DNA from: a virus
Reading direction: 5' to 3' (one strand)
Length of the DNA: 32,568 bases
Virus record (IMG/VR): IMGVR_UViG_3300027754_000280
Location: 1 to 32,568 of that record
The first letter of the stretch is position 1; every line of letters begins with the position of its first letter. Position numbers and translations under genes: made by a program. The notes beneath the pieces were generated by a model, which searched no databases, had not been told where the DNA came from, and worked only from the letters and a program-made list of their open reading frames with translations. Of the stretch, positions 3,356 through 30,689 are shown in pieces.

Positions 3356-5044
3356 TTATTTGTCTCCTACGCCGCGTTCATCTAGGTTGGCCGACCCCAT
3401 GGATCGGACGGCTTCCGCCTGTTTTATTAATTGACGCGCCTTAAAACTCAAACTTGTCACTCGTCCGACATCGCCACTCTTGATTGCTTTAGATAAGTCG
3501 CGCATTAGTTGCGCCGTCTGAAGCTTCGTGGTGAATCCAGAGTTAAGCGCCGAATCAACAAGTGGGCCGAACGCATAGCCAACGGCAGCACCCTGTAAGC
3601 CTGCCGCATTTCCGCCCATTATCGTGCCAGTGAGACGAGCCATGATCTGCCTACCAACCTTTGGCCGCGCCCGTTCAATTTCTTCGGTGGCCTTCAAGAT
3701 GTCACTGGCATTCTTATAGAGCGAGTAATTAAGGTTTGCTGCAGCATTCTCAGGATCAAGCTTGGCAAGGTATTCACGCATTGCTCCCGCGACATCAGCC
3801 GCGCCAGAAGCCTTACCAGAAACCTTTAAGTAATCAGCAGTAACAGATGGGTTATAAATTGTTTGCGCCATCTTGTCGTAGGCTTCTCGCAGCGTTTTAA
3901 TTGAGTCATACGAGGCTACAGGCCCAAGTTGCTTGACTTCGCCAATGGCTTGCTGGATTTGCCCGGCTCTTGGCATATTCGGCCTAGGAATCACATCTTT
4001 ACCAAGAGGAGATCCGACCTTAAATCTCTGGACCGGAGGAGCTGGAACAGGATCAGAGAACGAAGGTGTTGTAAGACTCTGGGTCCGATAATTAGGCCGC
4101 TCAGGCGTGGCTGCTGAACCGGTAGTGACATCCTCAAGAGCCGGAATAATGCCTTCTGCTTCAACAGCTTTTGCTTTTAATCGATTCAATCGTTCTTGAA
4201 GCGCGTCAATAACAGGCTGGGTAACATACGTAGAAGGTGTCCGTGCATCAGCAATTTCGTCCAAAGCAGAACTTGCGTCCGCTAATCTCTCAGATACACT
4301 TGCCTGCAATCCGGCCCGTGACAATCCCTTGGCTTCAATTTGTGGCGCAATCTTTATGGCCTTGGCCCCCATGCGCCGCCCCATAACCGTTGAGGATTTT
4401 GGCGACATCACATCGGCCACACGCGCATTTGCCCCACGGTCAAGAGCCTCAGCTACGCGCAAAGGCACCCCAGCCCGTACACCCTTTGCTAATCCTTCCG
4501 CTACACCAAATGGCACTAGCATTCCAGCAGCTTTTCCTAAGCCTCCCGCAACATCACCAGACGCAATTTGGGTTCCTGCTTCCACCGCAAGTGGACCAAT
4601 GACGGGAATTGCCCCCGCAAGATGGCCTGCCGCTTCGACTAGCCGCCCCTGGTCGTAGTTCTGTTTTGCCTGCGCCAGTTGATCGCCAGATTGAGACAGA
4701 ATTGCCGCGCCAGTATCAATGGGATGACGAACCGTTTGATAGAGTCCGGTTGCCATTGCCACTGGATTGATCATCTCGCCCAAATTTGACGCAAACCGCA
4801 ACGCCGCAGAATCGGATGGTTCTTTTTTTGTTGGCGAGGAAATTGATAGCCGTGGCGGGGCTTGCGCTTTCAGATCCCAAAGATCAGCCCTAACATCCTT
4901 TGGCAGATTCAACGTCAACATTTTTTCTTGAAGATCGTCTTCATTTGCCGCACCGGAAAAAGCTTCTGAAGCCGAGCGGCGTTGCGCCGGAGTCAACGGG
5001 GACTTCAGCAAGAGACGTACGACGGGATCAATAGGCTCAGGCAT
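3356..5044 (-). CDS. Putative internal virion/DNA-ejection protein
   Basis: A 562-residue protein. The N-terminus is charged and helical (PVVRLLLKSPLTPAQRR). Residues about 90-190 contain several Gly/Ala-rich hydrophobic stretches (AGHLAGAIPVIGPLAVEAG, AAGMLVPFGVAEGLA), and a further one lies near residue 490 (GGNAAGLQGAAVGYAFGPL). The rest is long helices. Large helical proteins with amphipathic, potentially membrane-inserting segments at this map place correspond to the P22 gp16/gp20 ejection proteins. The start overlaps the previous stop as TAATG. The DNA is more A/T-rich than the head genes. No enzyme motif is visible. The role is inferred from position and composition. Confidence 0.75.
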   Translation of the reverse strand: MPEPIDPVVRLLLKSPLTPAQRRSASEAFSGAANEDDLQEKMLTLNLPKDVRADLWDLKAQAPPRLSISSPTKKEPSDSAALRFASNLGEMINPVAMATGLYQTVRHPIDTGAAILSQSGDQLAQAKQNYDQGRLVEAAGHLAGAIPVIGPLAVEAGTQIASGDVAGGLGKAAGMLVPFGVAEGLAKGVRAGVPLRVAEALDRGANARVADVMSPKSSTVMGRRMGAKAIKIAPQIEAKGLSRAGLQASVSERLADASSALDEIADARTPSTYVTQPVIDALQERLNRLKAKAVEAEGIIPALEDVTTGSAATPERPNYRTQSLTTPSFSDPVPAPPVQRFKVGSPLGKDVIPRPNMPRAGQIQQAIGEVKQLGPVASYDSIKTLREAYDKMAQTIYNPSVTADYLKVSGKASGAADVAGAMREYLAKLDPENAAANLNYSLYKNASDILKATEEIERARPKVGRQIMARLTGTIMGGNAAGLQGAAVGYAFGPLVDSALNSGFTTKLQTAQLMRDLSKAIKSGDVGRVTSLSFKARQLIKQAEAVRSMGSANLDERGVGDK

Positions 5045-16309: not shown

Positions 16310-18726
16310 TCGCCTTCCTGTTCTTTAGGTCTGCCCATGTTAGGCATGTGCATCATGCGTTCCTGCTCGTCGTCCAAACTTTCGCGCTTAGCCATCTGCT
16401 GCTCATGGAATTGCTTGGCCGCTTGCTGGACAGAGGTGACTTCGTGTGCGGTATCGGCCTTGTCCTTAGCCATGGCAGCGGCTAACGCGGCAGTGGCTTC
16501 ATCGGCGCGGATCTTCATCGCCGTAATGGTCATCTGCGTTTCGTTCCGCATCCGCTCAATTTCAATCTTGGCCTGCTGGTCACTCTGCGCCTGCACGGTC
16601 TGCGCTTGCAGCTTTTCACGTTCCTGCTGGAGGATCATGTCCTGCTTCTGAAGTTCCAACTGCGCCTGTTGCTGGAGTTTTTGGCCATCCGATTCCAGCA
16701 GCTTGGTCTTCTCGTCCAGCGCCTTGCCCAATTGCTCGACCATCTGGCTAGCCTGCTGCAACTGGTTCTGTAATTGCTGCGGATCGGGTTCCGCACCCTG
16801 CGCTTGGAGCGGCGGCGGCAGCATCTTCTTGACGCGCTCGGCGGCTTCCAGGTGACCCGGGAAGTCGCGGAACTTGAGGTAGATGTCGCCCAAAATGGGG
16901 AACAACGACGGATTGGCTTGGAACAGGTTGCCCATCTCGTCTGCGCCTTCTTCATTCCGGCTCTTGTAGCTCTTGCCAATACTGACGGACACGCCGTAAC
17001 GGCCCTTCTTCAATTCGTAATTCAGCACCTTGCCCTGTGGCCGCGCCATGGGCGAAGGAGGCATCCCCATGGGCATGGGAGGCGCACCAGGAGGCGGGGG
17101 CATGCCGGGTTGACCCATCGCACCCATCGGCATCGGCGGAGCCGGAGACGCCTGTGGTGCGCCCTGCGCCACCGCCACGGGACGTTGTGTCTGGGGGTTC
17201 ACCCGAAACGGCTGGTTAAGCATCACCGTCTTGGAGCGGTCTTCCCGGTCAAGAATCCGGGCGACACGACCCGGACGGTCATAAATGTGGGGAATTAAAT
17301 CCAGCACAACCTTAGCTTCGTAGGTCATGCTGATTTCCGCCAAATTGTCGAGGAAATGGCTGGAACCAGCCATGTGTTGGTTCTGGAGCGCCAACACAGC
17401 GCGACCGCTCTTGGCGTTGGTGGCCTGTTGGCCTAGTGCGCTCTCGTACGCGCCCGTGCCTTCGTGGATAAACTCACGAGCCTGTTGCAGGAGGAGCATG
17501 GACGGGCCTAGACGCGACGTGTCTACCTGGGTGCGCTGCGGCGGCGGGGCCGGAGTGCCATTCAAGCTGACATTGCGGTAGCGCAGGTAGGGGAAGTTGC
17601 GAACGTTCGCCAACTGCCACTCTTCTTCGTGGCCCTCTTCCTGCCCTTCGACCATGGTGTACGGCGCTTTGGTTTCCAGAGACGCCATTTCCACGGCGCT
17701 GCTGGCGCTATAGTTCAGCAGCCGCACGGCGTCTTTATTCGGCTCAATCATGCCGACCCAGCGGCGTTCCTGCTCAAACGGAATCAGTTCCCGCCCAACG
17801 ACCGGAATGATGGGGATATACCGCCCATCCATGGCCTGCTTGGGTTCCAACTCTTCAATGGCGTTGATAGTAGACCAATACAGAACAGGCTTGCGTTCAG
17901 TGCGCGTTCGGGCCTCGGCTCCCGTGCGCGGCTGGCGTCCCGGCGGAATGTTATCGGCCACGGCGTCGGAACCGTCATCCAGCAGCACCCGGGTGCTAGT
18001 TTCGTATTCAATGCGGTAATACTCGGCCACCCGTACGGCGCGACCTTCGCCCTCATCTCCACTGACCCACGACTGGGTGTTCATGCCGACCGCCGACAGT
18101 TCGTCTTCCGAGAACGTCGCCATCTCGCTGTCTGGATACCGGCGTTTGTAGGTTGACCACGGCATGTCGTTGATAAGGAACGCCCACTGCCCGTCCGAGA
18201 AGTCCGGTTCTTGAGCAAACGGATCCAGCACGACACTGCCCTGCTGCAAGATCCGCTTAATCATAATCCGCTGGTCAAACGGGTCTTCCGAATCCGGATC
18301 CGGCTCGGTCATCACGCGGTAATACCCGCGTCCCGCCTTGACGGCCCGTTCAAACGCCCATGACCGCGCCAATCCGGCCCGGCTTTCCACTTCAATGCGC
18401 CGATACAGCCCCTGAATAATCTCGGCGGTGTCGTCACTCGCCTCATCCGACAGGGCATGAATGGTGACGCCTAGATGCGCGGCCTTTTCAGCGTTCAGCA
18501 CCAACTGAATGGGGTGATCCAGGCTGGGAATCGACAGCATGGGGCGCTGCGGAATGGCGACCCCGCCAATCAACTGCGGTTTGCGCTGGTCTTTGACCTC
18601 GGTTGGCCAACACAGATCCGGCACCTGAAAGCGCAGGGCATCGACCTCGCGGTTGCGCTGGTCAATGTCGGCATCGCTGCCCACTTTGAATCGGTCAAGG
18701 GCTTGCTGTAATTCAGGAGTTGCCAT
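16306..18726 (-). CDS. Portal protein, P22 gp1-like
   Basis: An 806-residue protein, longer than the P22 portal (725). The N-terminal body has a P22-like sequence with RPMLSIPSLDHPIQLVLNAE and KAGRGYYRVMTEPDPDSEDP, and the stem region contains GRYIPIIPVVGRELIPFEQE. Residues about 430-500 hold the QNQHMAGSSHFLDNLAEI segment and YDRPGRVARILDRED. After a Pro/Met/Gly-rich stretch (about 560-610), the C-terminal 150 residues form a long Gln/Glu/Lys coiled coil, matching the barrel of the P22 portal that protrudes into the head. The start is TAATG-coupled to the terminase gene. It forms the dodecameric entry ring for DNA. Confidence 0.88.
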   Translation of the reverse strand: MATPELQQALDRFKVGSDADIDQRNREVDALRFQVPDLCWPTEVKDQRKPQLIGGVAIPQRPMLSIPSLDHPIQLVLNAEKAAHLGVTIHALSDEASDDTAEIIQGLYRRIEVESRAGLARSWAFERAVKAGRGYYRVMTEPDPDSEDPFDQRIMIKRILQQGSVVLDPFAQEPDFSDGQWAFLINDMPWSTYKRRYPDSEMATFSEDELSAVGMNTQSWVSGDEGEGRAVRVAEYYRIEYETSTRVLLDDGSDAVADNIPPGRQPRTGAEARTRTERKPVLYWSTINAIEELEPKQAMDGRYIPIIPVVGRELIPFEQERRWVGMIEPNKDAVRLLNYSASSAVEMASLETKAPYTMVEGQEEGHEEEWQLANVRNFPYLRYRNVSLNGTPAPPPQRTQVDTSRLGPSMLLLQQAREFIHEGTGAYESALGQQATNAKSGRAVLALQNQHMAGSSHFLDNLAEISMTYEAKVVLDLIPHIYDRPGRVARILDREDRSKTVMLNQPFRVNPQTQRPVAVAQGAPQASPAPPMPMGAMGQPGMPPPPGAPPMPMGMPPSPMARPQGKVLNYELKKGRYGVSVSIGKSYKSRNEEGADEMGNLFQANPSLFPILGDIYLKFRDFPGHLEAAERVKKMLPPPLQAQGAEPDPQQLQNQLQQASQMVEQLGKALDEKTKLLESDGQKLQQQAQLELQKQDMILQQEREKLQAQTVQAQSDQQAKIEIERMRNETQMTITAMKIRADEATAALAAAMAKDKADTAHEVTSVQQAAKQFHEQQMAKRESLDDEQERMMHMPNMGRPKEQEGE

Positions 18727-20153
18727 TAGTGTGCCATCCAGCTTGACGCCTGCGAGGTGCGACGGGGTGACCGATTGTGCGTCTGCGGGGCCACGCGCAT
18801 TTGCGACCGCCCGCTAATAATCAAATAGCGCGTGGCATCCATGAGGTGATCCCCGCTTTTGACAATCTTACCTTGCTCGTCGCGGTGATATTTTCGAAAC
18901 TCGTTGCGCCAGTTGCGGAGATGCTCCTGCACCTTGAGACGGCCCGACACCAGCAGGTTCCACGTCTCGGTAATCCCGGCTTCGACGGCATTGACGGCGG
19001 GATCGAGCTTCAAGCCCAGTCGCCCGTAAATCTGGATCAGGGTGCGGCCATCAATCTGGCTGCTGCCCGACGACGCGGGGTCAATGACGCCGGACATCCA
19101 TGCGCCCCGGGCTTTGACCGCTTCAGCGTGGCTGGCCGGTTCGCCCTGCCCCTGATAATGCTCGTCATACAGCACAATCTGACCAGAGCCGGGGTTTTGT
19201 GCGCCCCACACGACCGCCGTGCGGTTCCAGCCGACATCCATCGCGTAGACCTTGCGCCAGGTATCGGGAATCTCGGCGGTGGGGACAATGATGTCCTTTT
19301 CGGAGATGGGGTAAATGGCACCGGAACCGAGACTCGGTTCGCCTTCGGTTCGCGCCGCAATCTGGTAGGGCGGCGTGGTGGCCATCAGGGCGCGACGTTC
19401 ATCGACATCCAAGTGCGGGACATCTTTCCATCCGGCTTGGATGTAGGTCTTGAACTCGGCGGCTAAATCTGTTTCGGGTTCCAAGAATCCCTTGACCACC
19501 GCGCTCATGCCTTGGAGCGGCGTGAACGTCACCATGACAATGCCCTTGGTGGTCACGGTGCGGTAGAGCATCTCGGTATAGCAATCAGACGGCGGTTCCT
19601 CGTCGCACCAAATGACATGCTTGCTGGTGCCTTCAAACGACGGACGCCCCTGCTCGTAGGTTTTGAGGCCCAAGAGGCTCTGGCCCCCGGACACATGCTT
19701 GATGACCGCGCCTTCCAGCGCCCCTGGCAACCCGCGACTGCTGATCGTAGAGACAATGAGGTGCGCCGGAATCATGCCCGTGCCTGGTAGTTGCACGGAT
19801 CCCAGCAGTTTGGCTTGCACAATGTCGCGGGTGGTCTGACTATTGGTGCCGACTGCCCAGCATTCCACGGGGGTGTCAAACCGGCGACCGGCCCACCACT
19901 TGGGATACAGGCCCGTCAGGTGGCACGTCAGTTCGTAGGCCCCCGCTTCCGATTTGCCGACCCGGTTCGCGGCCATGAACAGCCGCTCTTTAAAGACTTT
20001 GCCTTGCGAGAAGAACTCCAGATGACGGGGGTAGAGCGCCCGGGCCAAGGGGCCGCTATCGGCAAAGAAGTTGGTAAACCGGGACGACGACCGGCGTTCC
20101 GCTTCATCCATCAGGCGCTGAAACAGCACCTGTTCGTCTAGCGTCAGTGGCAT
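18726..20153 (-). CDS. terL: Terminase large subunit (packaging ATPase/nuclease)
   Basis: A 475-residue protein, in the range of P22 gp2 (499). ATPase motifs: Walker A ANRVGKS at residues 62-68, Walker B VIWCDEEP at 180-187, and the coupling motif TFTPLQG at 209-215. Nuclease residues: D306 in YAMDVGWN, D358 in VIDPASS, and D435/D439 in DHLMDATRYLI, the RNase H-like set. It pumps DNA into the head through the portal and cuts the concatemer. It abuts the small terminase gene, and the coat-side genes follow. Confidence 0.93.
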   Translation of the reverse strand: MPLTLDEQVLFQRLMDEAERRSSSRFTNFFADSGPLARALYPRHLEFFSQGKVFKERLFMAANRVGKSEAGAYELTCHLTGLYPKWWAGRRFDTPVECWAVGTNSQTTRDIVQAKLLGSVQLPGTGMIPAHLIVSTISSRGLPGALEGAVIKHVSGGQSLLGLKTYEQGRPSFEGTSKHVIWCDEEPPSDCYTEMLYRTVTTKGIVMVTFTPLQGMSAVVKGFLEPETDLAAEFKTYIQAGWKDVPHLDVDERRALMATTPPYQIAARTEGEPSLGSGAIYPISEKDIIVPTAEIPDTWRKVYAMDVGWNRTAVVWGAQNPGSGQIVLYDEHYQGQGEPASHAEAVKARGAWMSGVIDPASSGSSQIDGRTLIQIYGRLGLKLDPAVNAVEAGITETWNLLVSGRLKVQEHLRNWRNEFRKYHRDEQGKIVKSGDHLMDATRYLIISGRSQMRVAPQTHNRSPRRTSQASSWMAH

Positions 20154-20615
20154 TTAATCGTGGAGTTTCTTGAGCAACGCCGCCATGCTGGCTTTCAATT
20201 CCGCATCACTGAGACTCGCGGTTGGGGTCGAGGTGACATCCAGGTCGAGGCTTTGCCGCGCCTGTCCAAACAGTCGATCCATGATGTCCTTGAGAATCGG
20301 CGCACTCGGGGCAATGGCGCTCAGCCGATACGCCTGTTCTCCGGCGTCCAGCTTCTCGGCCATGACCTCGGGATCGACCACCGTCTGCCATTTGCCCTGC
20401 GCGTCCCGCGCTTGCATGTGGGTGACGCCCTCAGCGGCGGTCAACTGCGCCTCCACCAGCCGGTCAAACCGCTTGGACACGGCTTGTTTCCACGCCGCCA
20501 GCAGTTCGGCCTTTTCGCGGTGCCGCATGGTGTGTCGAATTTTGGTGCCGTTGATGACATCACCGGGACGGGGCCGATACTTGGGGCCAAGTTTAGGGGT
20601 TCTTGAAGTTGGCAT
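20154..20615 (-). CDS. terS: Terminase small subunit
   Basis: A 153-residue protein with a basic N-terminus (TPKLGPKYRPRPGDVINGTK), a helical core (AELLAAWKQAVSKRFDRLVE) and a charged C-terminus ending LLKKLHD. It is the first gene of the leftward operon, directly before the large subunit. The ribosome site AAGG is 8 bases before the ATG. TerS rings recognise the packaging initiation site, which in P22 lies inside the terS gene; no site can be named here. Assignment rests on place, length and helix pattern. Upstream a TGTGATACA sequence could be an extended -10 for the late operon, but no -35 supports it. Confidence 0.8.
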   Translation of the reverse strand: MPTSRTPKLGPKYRPRPGDVINGTKIRHTMRHREKAELLAAWKQAVSKRFDRLVEAQLTAAEGVTHMQARDAQGKWQTVVDPEVMAEKLDAGEQAYRLSAIAPSAPILKDIMDRLFGQARQSLDLDVTSTPTASLSDAELKASMAALLKKLHD

Positions 20616-21047: not shown

Positions 21048-21074
21048 TCTGGCCATCCTCTGTACATCATCTTG

Positions 21075-21137
21075 GCCAATACCGAATAAGTTATTGCCAA
21101 TACCGAATAAGTCATTGCCAATACCGAATACGGGATT
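21075..21137. repeat. Three tandem 21-bp iterons (GCCAATACCGAATA core)
   Basis: Units at 21075-21095, 21096-21116 and 21117-21137. Each begins GCCAATACCGAATA and ends in ATT; units 1 and 2 differ at one base and unit 3 diverges in its last part. The period of 21 bp is two helical turns, so bound proteins would lie on one face. This is iteron-like architecture of an origin or operator. Confidence 0.85.
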
Positions 21138-21180
21138 GCGATCAGGTCATTCCTCCATGCGTCCATCCGCCAGGCTCCAG

Positions 21181-21207: not shown

Positions 21208-21287
21208 GTTCCGGACAATCTGTCCGGACAACCCGGACACCGTGTCCGGACAACGTGTCCGCCTTGTCCGGACAATCTGTCCGCCCC
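21208..21287. promoter_or_regulatory. Mirror-symmetric array of TGTCCGGACA sites
   Basis: Three perfect 10-bp palindromes TGTCCGGACA lie at 21221, 21243 and 21265, each 22 bases apart. Four half-type sites flank them, facing inward: CCGGACA on the left (centres near 21212.5 and 21234.5) and TGTCCG on the right (centres near 21260.5 and 21282.5). Successive centres are 13, 9, 13, 13, 9 and 13 bases apart, so the whole array is a dyad around 21247.5. It probably binds a dimeric phage protein cooperatively. A second array of the same core lies at 25581-25787. Confidence 0.8.
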
Positions 21288-21308
21288 CTTTCCTGTCTCC
21301 CCCCAGTT

Positions 21309-21335
21309 GGTGCAGTGGGTGCAGTGGGTGCAGTG
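21309..21335. repeat. Three tandem 9-bp repeats (GGTGCAGTG)
   Basis: Perfect copies at 21309-21317, 21318-21326 and 21327-21335. The last copy can pair with CCCACTGC at 21351-21358, making a small hairpin. The function is unknown; the period is not helical, so it may be slippage-generated. Confidence 0.8.
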
Positions 21336-21379
21336 GGATGGCCTCTCCCACCCACTGCCATTCCTGCCATTAGACCCCT

Positions 21380-21450
21380 GCTACACGGTTGCTACACGCA
21401 GAAACACGATTGCTACACGCAGAAACAGGATTGCTACACGGTTGCTACAC
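21380..21450. repeat. GCTACAC array, helically phased
   Basis: GCTACAC starts at 21380, 21391, 21412, 21433 and 21444, spaced 11, 21, 21 and 11 bases. Two of the intervals are near-identical 21-bp units (21391-21411 and 21412-21432), each carrying the extra segment GCAGAAACA; the outer ones are the short 11-bp form. The spacing is symmetric and in phase with the DNA helix, as in iteron origins or partition sites. Confidence 0.8.
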
Positions 21451-21883
21451 TGCGTATCCATCTGGTTTCTGGATTTCGCGGGGTATGAAGGGGTGGGAGG
21501 GGGGAATCCCCGATCCAAAAGCGATTCGGTTCCTACCAGGCCGGAACGGAACGAGCCAGATCCCGGATCCCTGATTCACACAAGCTGGCACCTAGAACCA
21601 CGGTAGGCCGGGGCAGGGGCAGGGCCGGTACATGGTTGGGACTGGTCACCTGCTGGCGTGGGGAAGGGGGGGGTGGCAGATGGGGAGGCGGCAGACCTAT
21701 CCAGTCCTGGCGTAGGTTGGGCTGGGGTTCGTCGGTCGTCATCCTTAGGTCATTTCCCCTATGACAACGCCCATGATAAATGATACGCAAGCGGACGATT
21801 GTGCTTGCTATACGGTTGGGCCTTGTGTTCTACTCTCCCTCGTCAGCGCGAAGTGCTGGCCCCAAGCAAAGGAACCCGAACCC
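21451..21883. other. Non-coding, G-rich stretch
   Basis: No supported gene. G-runs at about 21488-21505, 21608-21625 and 21658-21688 are long enough for a possible quadruplex (the last has four runs of three or more). A GTCAT/ATGAC dyad lies at about 21750-21766, and a TATACG sequence at 21809 lacks a convincing -35. The early operon's promoter probably lies here but cannot be placed. Confidence 0.4.
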
Positions 21884-25215: not shown

Positions 25216-25250
25216 GAGACGCCACAACGAATTTTTGTTGGTGGCGTCTC
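25216..25250. terminator. Hairpin between convergent operons
   Basis: GAGACGCCAC (25216-25225) pairs perfectly with GTGGCGTCTC (25241-25250), with an inner CAAC/GTTG extension possible. No T-run follows on either strand, so it is not a textbook intrinsic terminator, but its place between the ends of the plus block and the HTH gene suggests a bidirectional stop. A doubled 10-bp GTCGCACATC lies just before it (25168-25187). Confidence 0.55.
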
Positions 25251-25521
25251 ACTCTTCATCGTTGGGTGGCAACACCTCCCAGAGGTGCTTATTCAGCTTG
25301 TGGGCCGCTAATCCCAAGAACGCCAGCGTCAACTGGCACCGAACAAAATACTCCGGTCGTCGCACCCGGGTCGTCGCTTCCCAGCCTTGCACGGTTCGCC
25401 AACTGACCGGATCGCCGTTTTCCCGCGTCCAATGTTTCGCAAACTTCCGGCACGTCTCCCGCAGGATCTCCCGGCGAAAGACCGCGACCTGGGTGGGCGT
25501 CCATTGAATCTGAGGCAACAT
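25249..25521 (-). CDS. HTH-like transcription regulator
   Basis: A 90-residue basic protein starting at 25521 with GGAG 8 bases upstream; longer in-frame starts reach 25599, but this ATG has the ribosome site. It holds an HTH-like segment: TPTQVAVFRREILRETCRKF, then RTVQGWEATTRV, where TVQGWE matches the recognition helix of Cro/CI-like proteins (usually TVQNWE), and helical AFLGLAAHKLNKHLWE at the end. Directly upstream lies the TGTCCG array, so autoregulation through it is a natural hypothesis. The protein is small and basic, and dimerisation is not visible. Confidence 0.65.
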   Translation of the reverse strand: MLPQIQWTPTQVAVFRREILRETCRKFAKHWTRENGDPVSWRTVQGWEATTRVRRPEYFVRCQLTLAFLGLAAHKLNKHLWEVLPPNDEE

Positions 25522-25544
25522 TTTAACTTCTCCATCTGTCCTGA

Positions 25545-25578
25545 CCCCTCCCTCCCCTATTACATAGGGGGGGAGGGG
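25545..25578. repeat. Inverted repeat in the leader of the HTH gene
   Basis: CCCCTAT and ATAGGGG pair around TAC, with partial C/G extension on both sides. On the plus strand TTTG follows; on the minus strand it would lie in the leader of the HTH-like gene, 24 bases before its start codon. It could attenuate, or block ribosome access. Confidence 0.5.
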
Positions 25579-25580
25579 TT

Positions 25581-25787
25581 TGTCCGGATCAGATCCCACT
25601 GTGTCCGGACAACCGTGTCCGGGGGTTAACCTACTGAGAACAAAGACCTTGCGCGTTCGTGGTTTTCGCGTGTCCGCCGCGTGTCCGGCACCATGTCAAA
25701 ATGACGTGTCCGGGCATTTTCAGGCCCAAATTCGCAGATCACGACGGTTTGTCCGGCCTTGTCCGCCCTTTGTCCGCCCCTTGTCCG
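25581..25787. promoter_or_regulatory. Ten-site TGTCCG array upstream of the HTH-like gene
   Basis: TGTCCG starts at 25581, 25602, 25616, 25671, 25682, 25707, 25750, 25760, 25771 and 25782. Only the 25602 site is the full palindrome TGTCCGGACA. All face the same way, and the four at 25750-25787 are 10, 11 and 11 bases apart, one helical turn. A GTCA-AAA-TGAC dyad lies at 25695. No clear promoter can be seen inside. The core matches the 21208-21287 array. Confidence 0.75.
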
Positions 25788-25788
25788 C

Positions 25789-26277
25789 CTACAAATTGAA
25801 GGGGTTAACAAAGCCTTTCGCCTCCCAGTATCGGACGTCCGCCGCTGCCTGACACGCGGGGCAGCGCCCATACTGTCGGCCAGCCTCTAGCGCCTCCCCA
25901 CAACTGAAACACGCCCCAGCCCCATGGGGGCCATCGGAGGCCACCGGCACACAATCCCCGCTCCCGCGTTCGATCATGGCTTCTAGGCGTCCCTGAGCCG
26001 CCGGAGCGAGTATCTGAGCCACTGCTGACGCTTCGGCGTCAGACCGCGAGAGGTTGCCGTCAAATTCGGCAATTCCGGCCCGTTCGTCGTACTCGACCAG
26101 ATACGCCAGAATGTCGGTCTTGTGGTCGCGGATAGCTTGACCGTCTGCCGGGGTTAGCCGGTGACCTGGTTCGACAAACAAGGTATCCCCGTCAGCCCGT
26201 AACCGGAACCCGTCGCGCTCGAGCCGCAGCAGCAGGTCGATGGCATCGTCCGCGAAGGGTAGTGGTACGTCGCGCAT
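25789..26277 (-). CDS. TubC-N-like/zinc protein at the end of the replication operon
   Basis: A 162-residue protein. The ATG at 26277 overlaps the primase stop as TGATG; a TTG two codon positions earlier is less likely. Residues about 10-60 (LLLRLERDGFRLRADGDTL, then LTPADGQAIRDHKTDILAYL) resemble the TubC N-terminal docking domain seen in some phage primase neighbours. The C-terminal part carries CFSCGEAL and CPACQAA, two C-x2-C pairs fitting a zinc ribbon. It may assist the primase-helicase. The resemblance is by pattern only. Confidence 0.65.
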   Translation of the reverse strand: MRDVPLPFADDAIDLLLRLERDGFRLRADGDTLFVEPGHRLTPADGQAIRDHKTDILAYLVEYDERAGIAEFDGNLSRSDAEASAVAQILAPAAQGRLEAMIERGSGDCVPVASDGPHGAGACFSCGEALEAGRQYGRCPACQAAADVRYWEAKGFVNPFNL

Positions 26278-28322
26278 CAAAACCTCCCCGCCTGCTGACC
26301 GCTGGTCAAGCTGACCGCTAGCCGGATCCGCTGGTCAGGGTCACGGGCAAACACGCCGTCCATGCGGCGGATCGTGCGCCCAATCGTGTCGGTCTTCTCC
26401 CCGAGTTCTGAGGCCAGCTCCTCGACCGAGAGAGGCCGGTGGGCGACGAGCGCCTTGATGCGCTGCCACACGGGCAGCACCGCGCTCAGTTCCTCACTCG
26501 ACGCGACATCGAACCGGTCTACTCGGGTCGAGGTCGCATCAAACGTCAGCCGTAATCCGAAGGCCGGAAGCCGCCGCGACGTATTCGACTTCTTGTGACT
26601 GAGCGCCACTTCGATCACGTTGCCCCCGTCACCGGCATCGTTCGACCGCTTGATGTTGAAGATCGACCGAGCGGCAGCCGACCAGAAGGTCGATCCGAAC
26701 GGTTTCTCGTCCCCATGCTCTTGGCTCTTCGTCGTATGCGCGAGATGCAACGACCCGATCCCGAGTTGCCGCACCGCACGAAAGAAGGCCGTGGCGTGTT
26801 CTGCATCTTCAGGACGACCTGGCACCGCGAAGCCGACACTGTCGCACACGAAGTATTGAATGCCGTGCTGCACGATATGCCGCTGCAACCGAGCCGCCTC
26901 CGACACCATGGGAGACGCGCAGCGCACATAATGCAGAGTGTCGCGGGGCATCCCGTCCCAGCCACACAATCTCTCCAACCGTTCCCGGTGATCCTCAGGG
27001 CTAAACTCCCAGTCCCCGTACAGCACCTTGATGCCGCGTCTCGCCAGCGTCGAGGCAATGTGGAGCGCCAAGTACGACTTGGCTGAGCCGCCATCCCCGA
27101 ACAGAATCATGGGGTGCCGTTGCAGGATCGGAATGCCGGACACCTCCCAGTTGCTGACGACTTCCGGCAACCCGTAGTCGGCCAGCGGCTGAATCGGGGT
27201 GCCTTCACTCTCGGCTTGTTGCACTCGCAGCGACAACGTCTCGACTGCCCCCAACCAGTCCAGACCAGCCGCACCCGAGCGTCCGGCGCACGACTGGGCC
27301 AGTGTCGCCCGTGTGCGCTGGCTGCTGAAGTTGGCGCTCGACCACAACAACACGCCGTCGATGGTTTTGGCCCCCATCAGCGTCGTGGTCACCGTCAGTT
27401 CGCCGTGCAGGTCACGGTCACGATCACGGTGGAGTTGTTCCGCACGAAGCGTGATACCCAAGGCGGGATACTCCAACGCGTACGCGCCTTCGCCCAGTTT
27501 CGTAAACGTCTGCTCCGACCGCAGCAGGTCAGGGATGCTGCCGTGTTCAATCACTGGTATTTCGACCGGAGGAGCCGTCGCCAAGGCCAGCAAGCTGGCA
27601 GCGGTGCCACCGGAGGCGAAGTAGTCGCTGATGTCACCATGGGCCTGTAATCCCGGCAGGGCCACTAACCGCGCTGACAGCCCCGCCGTGGTCAACTGCT
27701 CAATCACGCTAGCCGCATGACGACGACCGGGGACATCGTGGTCAGGGACGACGTAGACCTGCGAAGGTGCAAGGGCGACGAGCGCAGCGGTTTCTTCGGC
27801 CTTCCACTTCCCGGCCCCGCCGCAGTTGGTGGTCGCGGCCAGCCCGTGAGCGCGGCAGGTTTCCACATCCTTCTCGCCTTCGACCACCCAGACCACCGGC
27901 TGACCGGCGAGGTCAGGCCAGCGATAGAGCGCACGGGTCTTCGACGCTGACCAGATCCAGCCACCCGCGCCGTCTGGTCGTCGCTGCCGGAAGCTCTTAT
28001 CAGCCCCCCGCACGACTTGGTGCAGCAGGGTGCCAGCCAGGTCCGTGTAATCGTAGACCGCTGCCGCGCTGGTCGAGCGCAACACGGGGATCGGCTCCGG
28101 CACCCGGATGACGTCTTCAAACAGGTCTGCCAGCGTCAGGCCGACTGACGACAGGATGTCTGCCGTCGCGCATCCCGCATGACAATGGATCAACACCCGG
28201 CCATCCTTCTCGGTCGCGCTGACCGACGCCACACGGTCTTCGTGAACGGGACATTGGAGGGCGTAGCCAGCCCCCGCCCGTTTCGCGGATGGGAACCGGC
28301 TCACGACTTGGTCGAGCGTCAT
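26277..28322 (-). CDS. Primase-helicase (CHC2/Toprim/RecA-like) fusion
   Basis: A 681-residue multidomain enzyme. Residues 24-51 hold the zinc-binding part (CPVHED and HCHAGC). The Toprim catalytic core has E148-G-E150-K-D152 and D194-H-D196. A RecA-like ATPase follows: Walker A GDGGSAKS (409-416), Walker B FVCDS (491-495), and HLAHTTK (526-532). A C-terminal winged-helix-like segment (LSVEELASELGEKTDTIGRT) may bind DNA. It should synthesise primers and unwind DNA at phage forks. It overlaps the preceding gene (ATGA) and the following gene. No part of a key motif is missing. Confidence 0.92.
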   Translation of the reverse strand: MTLDQVVSRFPSAKRAGAGYALQCPVHEDRVASVSATEKDGRVLIHCHAGCATADILSSVGLTLADLFEDVIRVPEPIPVLRSTSAAAVYDYTDLAGTLLHQVVRGADKSFRQRRPDGAGGWIWSASKTRALYRWPDLAGQPVVWVVEGEKDVETCRAHGLAATTNCGGAGKWKAEETAALVALAPSQVYVVPDHDVPGRRHAASVIEQLTTAGLSARLVALPGLQAHGDISDYFASGGTAASLLALATAPPVEIPVIEHGSIPDLLRSEQTFTKLGEGAYALEYPALGITLRAEQLHRDRDRDLHGELTVTTTLMGAKTIDGVLLWSSANFSSQRTRATLAQSCAGRSGAAGLDWLGAVETLSLRVQQAESEGTPIQPLADYGLPEVVSNWEVSGIPILQRHPMILFGDGGSAKSYLALHIASTLARRGIKVLYGDWEFSPEDHRERLERLCGWDGMPRDTLHYVRCASPMVSEAARLQRHIVQHGIQYFVCDSVGFAVPGRPEDAEHATAFFRAVRQLGIGSLHLAHTTKSQEHGDEKPFGSTFWSAAARSIFNIKRSNDAGDGGNVIEVALSHKKSNTSRRLPAFGLRLTFDATSTRVDRFDVASSEELSAVLPVWQRIKALVAHRPLSVEELASELGEKTDTIGRTIRRMDGVFARDPDQRIRLAVSLTSGQQAGRF

Positions 28323-30457: not shown

Positions 30458-30497
30458 CTGTTGCGTGAATCCCCGTAACCGTGATACCGTCACCGGC

Positions 30498-30689
30498 ATG
30501 ATTGTAGACCCCCTGATGCGCCTGCGGCTACTGGTCAAGAACCACGGCAGTCAACGAGCCGTCGCTCGACACTTGGGCGTGTCGGCGTCTCTGCTCTCGG
30601 ATTGGCTACTGGGACGCCGACCCGTGCCAGATAGTCTTTTGACGAAACTGCGATTGAAGCGAGTGATCGTCTCTCTGAGACAGGCATGA
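30498..30689 (+). CDS. Cro/XRE-like HTH regulator
   Basis: A 63-residue protein from the ATG at 30498; a GTG at 30465 would lengthen it by 11 residues, but no ribosome site supports either start strongly. The helix-turn-helix reads SQRAVARHLGVSASLLSDWL followed by LGRRPVP, a classic XRE/YdaS-type pattern. It is divergent from the replication operon and so likely controls both promoters. A possible -10 (GATACC, 30483) lies upstream with a TTGCGT -35. Confidence 0.75.
   Translation: MIVDPLMRLRLLVKNHGSQRAVARHLGVSASLLSDWLLGRRPVPDSLLTKLRLKRVIVSLRQA

Follow-up and report, generated by a model that had tools for sequence, protein, structure and literature searches.

Here we describe two clusters of a single hexamer, TGTCCG/CGGACA, that lie about 4.3 kb apart in the genome of a marine phage, and we report that arrays of this hexamer adjoin the AAA_25 (RSF1010-RepA-like) helicase genes of many unrelated phages. 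Our best explanation, which we consider probable, is that both clusters are sites for the winged helix of the phage's AAA_25 primase-helicase, array B being the origin of replication and array A an operator or an accessory replication site. The DNA analyzed, hereafter the window, is an entire virus record of 32568 bases; because the record is classed as linear it is perhaps a fragment. A near-identity search of phage records gave no matches, and host assignment through TerL matches in cellular genomes led to MAG contigs only. The features discussed are collected in Table 1.

Table 1. Coordinates of the two arrays and of neighboring genes in the window
Feature	Position	Strand	Remarks
Array A	21208..21287	.	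ten TGTCCG/CGGACA hexamers, one dyad at 21247.5
Array A hexamer starts	21212<, 21221>, 21225<, 21234<, 21243>, 21247<, 21256>, 21265>, 21269<, 21278>		
Array B	25581..25787	-	eleven hexamers; probable origin iterons
C-rich/G-rich hairpin abutting array B	25544..25579	-	DNA fold -17.2 kcal/mol, z -5.1
Toprim + AAA_25 (RepA-like) primase-helicase	26277..28322	-	Pfam AAA_25 4.4e-10, Toprim_3 1.2e-5; PHROG DNA primase
Primase-helicase C-terminal winged-helix domain (predicted)	26316..26474	-	residues ~617-669; proposed to read both arrays
TubC_N-domain + zinc-ribbon protein	25789..26280	-	Pfam TubC_N 5.1e-6; gene adjoins array B
Small HTH-like protein	25249..25521	-	downstream of array B; unlikely reader
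Probable small terminase gene	20154..20615	-	directly before TerL (18726-20153); first gene leftward of array A

Array A packs its ten hexamers into 72 bp (21212-21283), with start-to-start spacings of 9, 4, 9, 9, 4, 9, 9, 4 and 9 and with orientations strictly mirror-imaged about 21247.5. Read as larger units, it consists of three perfect copies of TGTCCGGACA that recur every 22 bp, at 21221, 21243 and 21265, plus four half-type sites, the successive centers being 13, 9, 13, 13, 9 and 13 bp apart. This is exactly the arrangement, including the 80-bp dyad, that the original prediction had described, and a repeat search also retrieves it as a 36-bp inverted repeat that is 81 % complementary and without gap. 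The same prediction held that chance recurrence would not produce such symmetry. The hexamer occurs 35 times in the whole window; when the window was simulated 60 times with a first-order Markov model, at most three copies fell within ~78 bp, where array A has ten. The array is located inside a ~1.2-kb non-coding stretch, with leftward late genes on one side and rightward genes on the other, among other repeats. To its left, three GCCAATACCGAATA units lie 21 bp apart (21070-21139); at this place another repeat of ~21 bp (ACACGAGTGTTCCATTT) is found in the sister phage L310. Three GGTGCAGTG units 9 bp apart adjoin array A (21304-21337), and five TTGCTACACG-type repeats with near-symmetric start spacings of 11, 21, 21 and 11 occupy 21373-21451; the latter were not seen in the corresponding region of L005. 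A sigma-70 promoter scan around array A remained at chance level, and neither array coincides with a clear turn in GC skew.

The second array of this hexamer was missed by the original prediction. Ten of the eleven hexamers of array B read CGGACA on the minus strand, and the other one completes the palindrome TGTCCGGACA at 25602. Its minus-strand start carries four direct copies 10-11 bp apart (25750-25787) and its end is marked by the GC hairpin, equivalents of which terminate the arrays of other phages too. Array A has neither a hairpin nor an 11-bp direct run and instead presents the same word in inverted pairs. Array B is flanked by the TubC_N/zinc-ribbon gene and the small HTH-like gene, downstream of the primase-helicase; it begins about 490 bp past the stop codon of the primase-helicase gene, from which the TubC_N gene separates it, and L060 and L039 are similar. 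With its eleven copies array B is thus a borderline case of a helicase-associated array as we define it, namely repeated occurrence of a single short word, in either orientation, no more than ~300 bp from the 3′ end of the helicase gene. TubC_N-like genes adjoin array B in most related phages. In L060 a ribbon-helix-helix-like (RHH-like) ORF (3359-3673; recognized by eye, no Pfam match) lies directly upstream of array B, and similar ORFs are found in L037, L039, L041 and L069.

Both arrays are retained in the sister contigs L088/L310 and L089/L288. Comparison of array A with L310, the kind of check that had been suggested for the spacing, reveals an identical layout with all ten hexamers and spacings in place: the hexamer bases are unchanged (54/54) and 3 of 18 spacer bases have changed (p 0.014), within 100-bp flanks that are ~40 % identical. 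For array B, the hexamer bases are likewise unchanged (64/64) in L088 and L089, with 27-30 of 143 spacer bases differing (p 3e-5 and 7e-6). Because the sister phage keeps hexamers and spacing while the flanks diverge, the proposal that a protein or complex reads this DNA in a cooperative, two-fold manner is a fair one; the two HTH proteins named as its readers do not fit, as discussed below. In L288/L005 an insert separates the halves of array A, which extend over a longer stretch and are mirror-symmetric but for one missing hexamer. L035, L036 and L037 have smaller hexamer clusters at this position, and none is present there in L039 and several other relatives. A DNA-pattern scan of viral contigs found the exact layout of array A only in this clade. 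Other TerL relatives carry a hairpin and a B-like array whose word has drifted to CGGGACA, GGCGACA or GGGGACA. Array A is absent from TerL relatives (91-93 % identical) that have no AAA_25 match in the DNA examined, and the primase-helicases of L090-L092, which are 63-69 % identical to that of the window, have no adjacent CGGACA array.

The association with the helicase is seen in a blind scan, for which viral loci were drawn by DNA pattern alone and an array was defined as at least seven hexamers in 260 bp. A member of the AAA_25 helicase family was found within 4 kb at 25/73 array loci compared to 2/95 others (Fisher 8.8e-9), a contrast that is somewhat biased toward array loci because the loci from which the helicase profile derives were ones with arrays. 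The arrays of the blind-scan loci usually lie within ~100 bp of the 3′ end of the AAA_25 gene, a placement that the profile bias does not explain. Isolated phages have an equivalent array at the same spot with words of their own, namely CGTGAC in Rhizobium 16-3 and RHph_X2_25, CTACAA in Roseobacter CRP-823 and CRP-811, GTATAA in CRP-831 and CRP-821 and GGTACA in Idiomarinaceae 1N2-2, and terminal hairpins accompany these arrays. No array above chance was detected in Caulobacter RW, ct76p945 and Salinibacter M8CR30-2, and none in one set of Toprim homologues that end without the C-terminal winged helix. A counterpart of array A was found neither in the Roseobacter and Idiomarinaceae phages nor in the 50 kb of 16-3 examined; thus array A is not needed for replication in the helicase family at large. 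Dense TGTCCG clusters also occur within coding-looking regions (L295, L312) and, in L193, L227, L272, L315, L317 and L326, in a second, common gene context; those of L295, L312, L315 and related loci may represent a different use of the word. A limited search of the open-access literature returned no description of these arrays, and the papers retrieved for the 10-mer were mostly on p53 or otherwise unrelated.

As judged from sequence, it is the AAA_25 primase-helicase with a C-terminal winged helix that tracks the arrays, and we propose this domain as the part that binds the hexamers. The AF2 model of the C-terminus has the order H-H-H-strand-strand with a pLDDT of about 90, and its closest PDB folds are mostly winged helices, all with weak E-values. 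Four Roseobacter phages (L341-L344) provide an apparent natural swap of initiator specificity: between CRP-811/823 and CRP-821/831 the hexamer and the C-terminal domain switch together between conserved flanks. The C-terminal ~130 residues of phages with the same hexamer are 96-100 % identical, those of phages with different hexamers about 70-88 %; the helicase domain just before them is 95-100 % identical, and the downstream DNA is 88-94 % identical, compared to 54 % for the array itself. Since the C-terminus and the array are adjacent, the joint exchange could be linkage. The distance between the primase-helicase gene of the window and array B, and the missing CGGACA array next to the L090-L092 genes, likewise speak against the proposal. 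Rather different helicase C-termini share CGGACA, and consequently no recognition code was found; a recognition-helix rule (A/G-R versus R-K) derived from five helicases was dropped on account of L307, which breaks it.

In array B, direct iterons spaced by about 11 bp precede a palindrome and a terminal hairpin, the architecture of a putative iteron origin, on which initiator units would line up on one helix face and the helicase would be loaded. Array A looks like a second landing site of the initiator because the same word forms an array by the primase-helicase and many unrelated phages have such arrays with their own words. Its hexamers are paired in inverted orientation with exact two-fold symmetry, so that dimers of the initiator, or a symmetric, closed complex, would be accommodated there. 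Array A would most likely act as an operator coupling replication to the early/late switch, or else as an accessory site pairing with array B; both roles are putative, the operator or switch element being somewhat likelier.

Several other readings of the arrays were weighed. Array A could be solely an accessory replication site, related to array B as crr is to ori in P4 and having no role in transcription. Two same-hexamer clusters separated by ~4.3 kb and the exact layout kept in the sister phage are consistent with this, but array A lacks the hairpin and the 11-bp direct run, is variable or missing in relatives and is absent from other phages of the helicase family, so that we regard this reading as possible but doubtful. 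A reader encoded by the host, or a different phage product such as the TubC_N or RHH-like protein, is rather unlikely. In favor of it, helicases with diverged C-terminal domains go with one and the same hexamer, and TubC_N or RHH-like genes adjoin array B in the clade; however, a host reader misfits because the phages use different hexamers, which in Roseobacter switch with the C-terminal domain, and outside the clade the TubC_N gene is absent beside the arrays in most loci listed.

The location of array A between divergent gene blocks, the other regulatory-looking repeats around it and the HTH gene adjoining array B would suit an operator of a phage transcription regulator unrelated to replication. 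Such a repressor-operator reading needs a repressor that co-occurs with the arrays, and neither candidate of the original prediction does so. Among the proteins scanned, no integrase or other lysogeny genes were noticed. Homologues of the 25249-25521 protein, which itself has no HMM match and a low-confidence model without a meaningful fold match, occur in L009, L014, L021, L024 and L056 with no adjacent array, and many array-bearing phages have no such HTH protein. Besides the two sister phages, only the relatives L090 and L048 have the Cro-like protein (30465-30689), and neither of these relatives has CGGACA arrays. Both proteins are unlikely readers and, the same hexamer being adjacent to AAA_25 helicase genes in many unrelated phages, we give this explanation little credence. 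A role of array A in packaging, as a pac/cos site recognized by the small terminase, is highly improbable. Array A does lie ~0.6 kb upstream of the probable terS, a gene with no HMM match of its own, but phages with 91-93 % identical TerL have no array A, for which reason we rejected the pac-site reading, and the hexamer also makes up array B, far from terS, and recurs at the helicase loci of other phages.

Extending the preferred reading, in which the primase-helicase recognizes both arrays, we tentatively entertain a widespread modular phage origin system in which the winged-helix tail of a RepA-like primase-helicase and its hexamer array travel together as a single specificity cassette; in this genus the initiator may be redeployed at the mirror-symmetric array between late and early genes, coupling replication to expression. 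If true, replication origins in many uncultured and isolated phages could be located simply by inspecting the 3′ ends of RepA-like helicase genes, and the DNA-binding tail of an initiator would be naturally exchanged together with its sites. CRP-811/823 and CRP-821/831 would then be paired phages for a direct test of initiator specificity, and array A would exemplify the use of an initiator at a further site, one with two-fold symmetry.

The proposed system resembles several known origins. The oriV of IncQ/RSF1010 plasmids is served by the RepA helicase, the RepB′ primase and RepC. The phage shares with it an AAA_25 RepA-like hexameric helicase and iterons with a hairpin near the replication genes, but here primase and helicase are fused, the repeats are short hexamers in both orientations with a second, mirror-symmetric array, and RepC had no match among the scanned proteins (part of the window's ORFs). 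Satellite phage P4 has ori1 and crr together with its alpha protein, an SF3 helicase. Both systems have one short iteron in two separate clusters, and in both primase and helicase are fused in a protein with a C-terminal DNA-binding domain, predicted in our case; however, alpha combines the SF3 helicase with a different primase whereas the phage combines AAA_25 with Toprim, and array A is an exact dyad. In iteron plasmids (R6K pi, pSC101 RepA) the origin iterons are direct and the operator half-iterons inverted, to which the direct array B and the inverted use of the same word in array A are analogous, an analogy and not a membership: no Rep protein of those families was found in this phage, and array A lies away from the promoter of the initiator gene. 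Finally, the ori recognized by the lambda O protein lies inside gene O. The phage arrays would likewise be iterons embedded at the initiator's own gene, although the protein belongs to another family and the arrays described here are placed at the 3′ end with varied hexamers.
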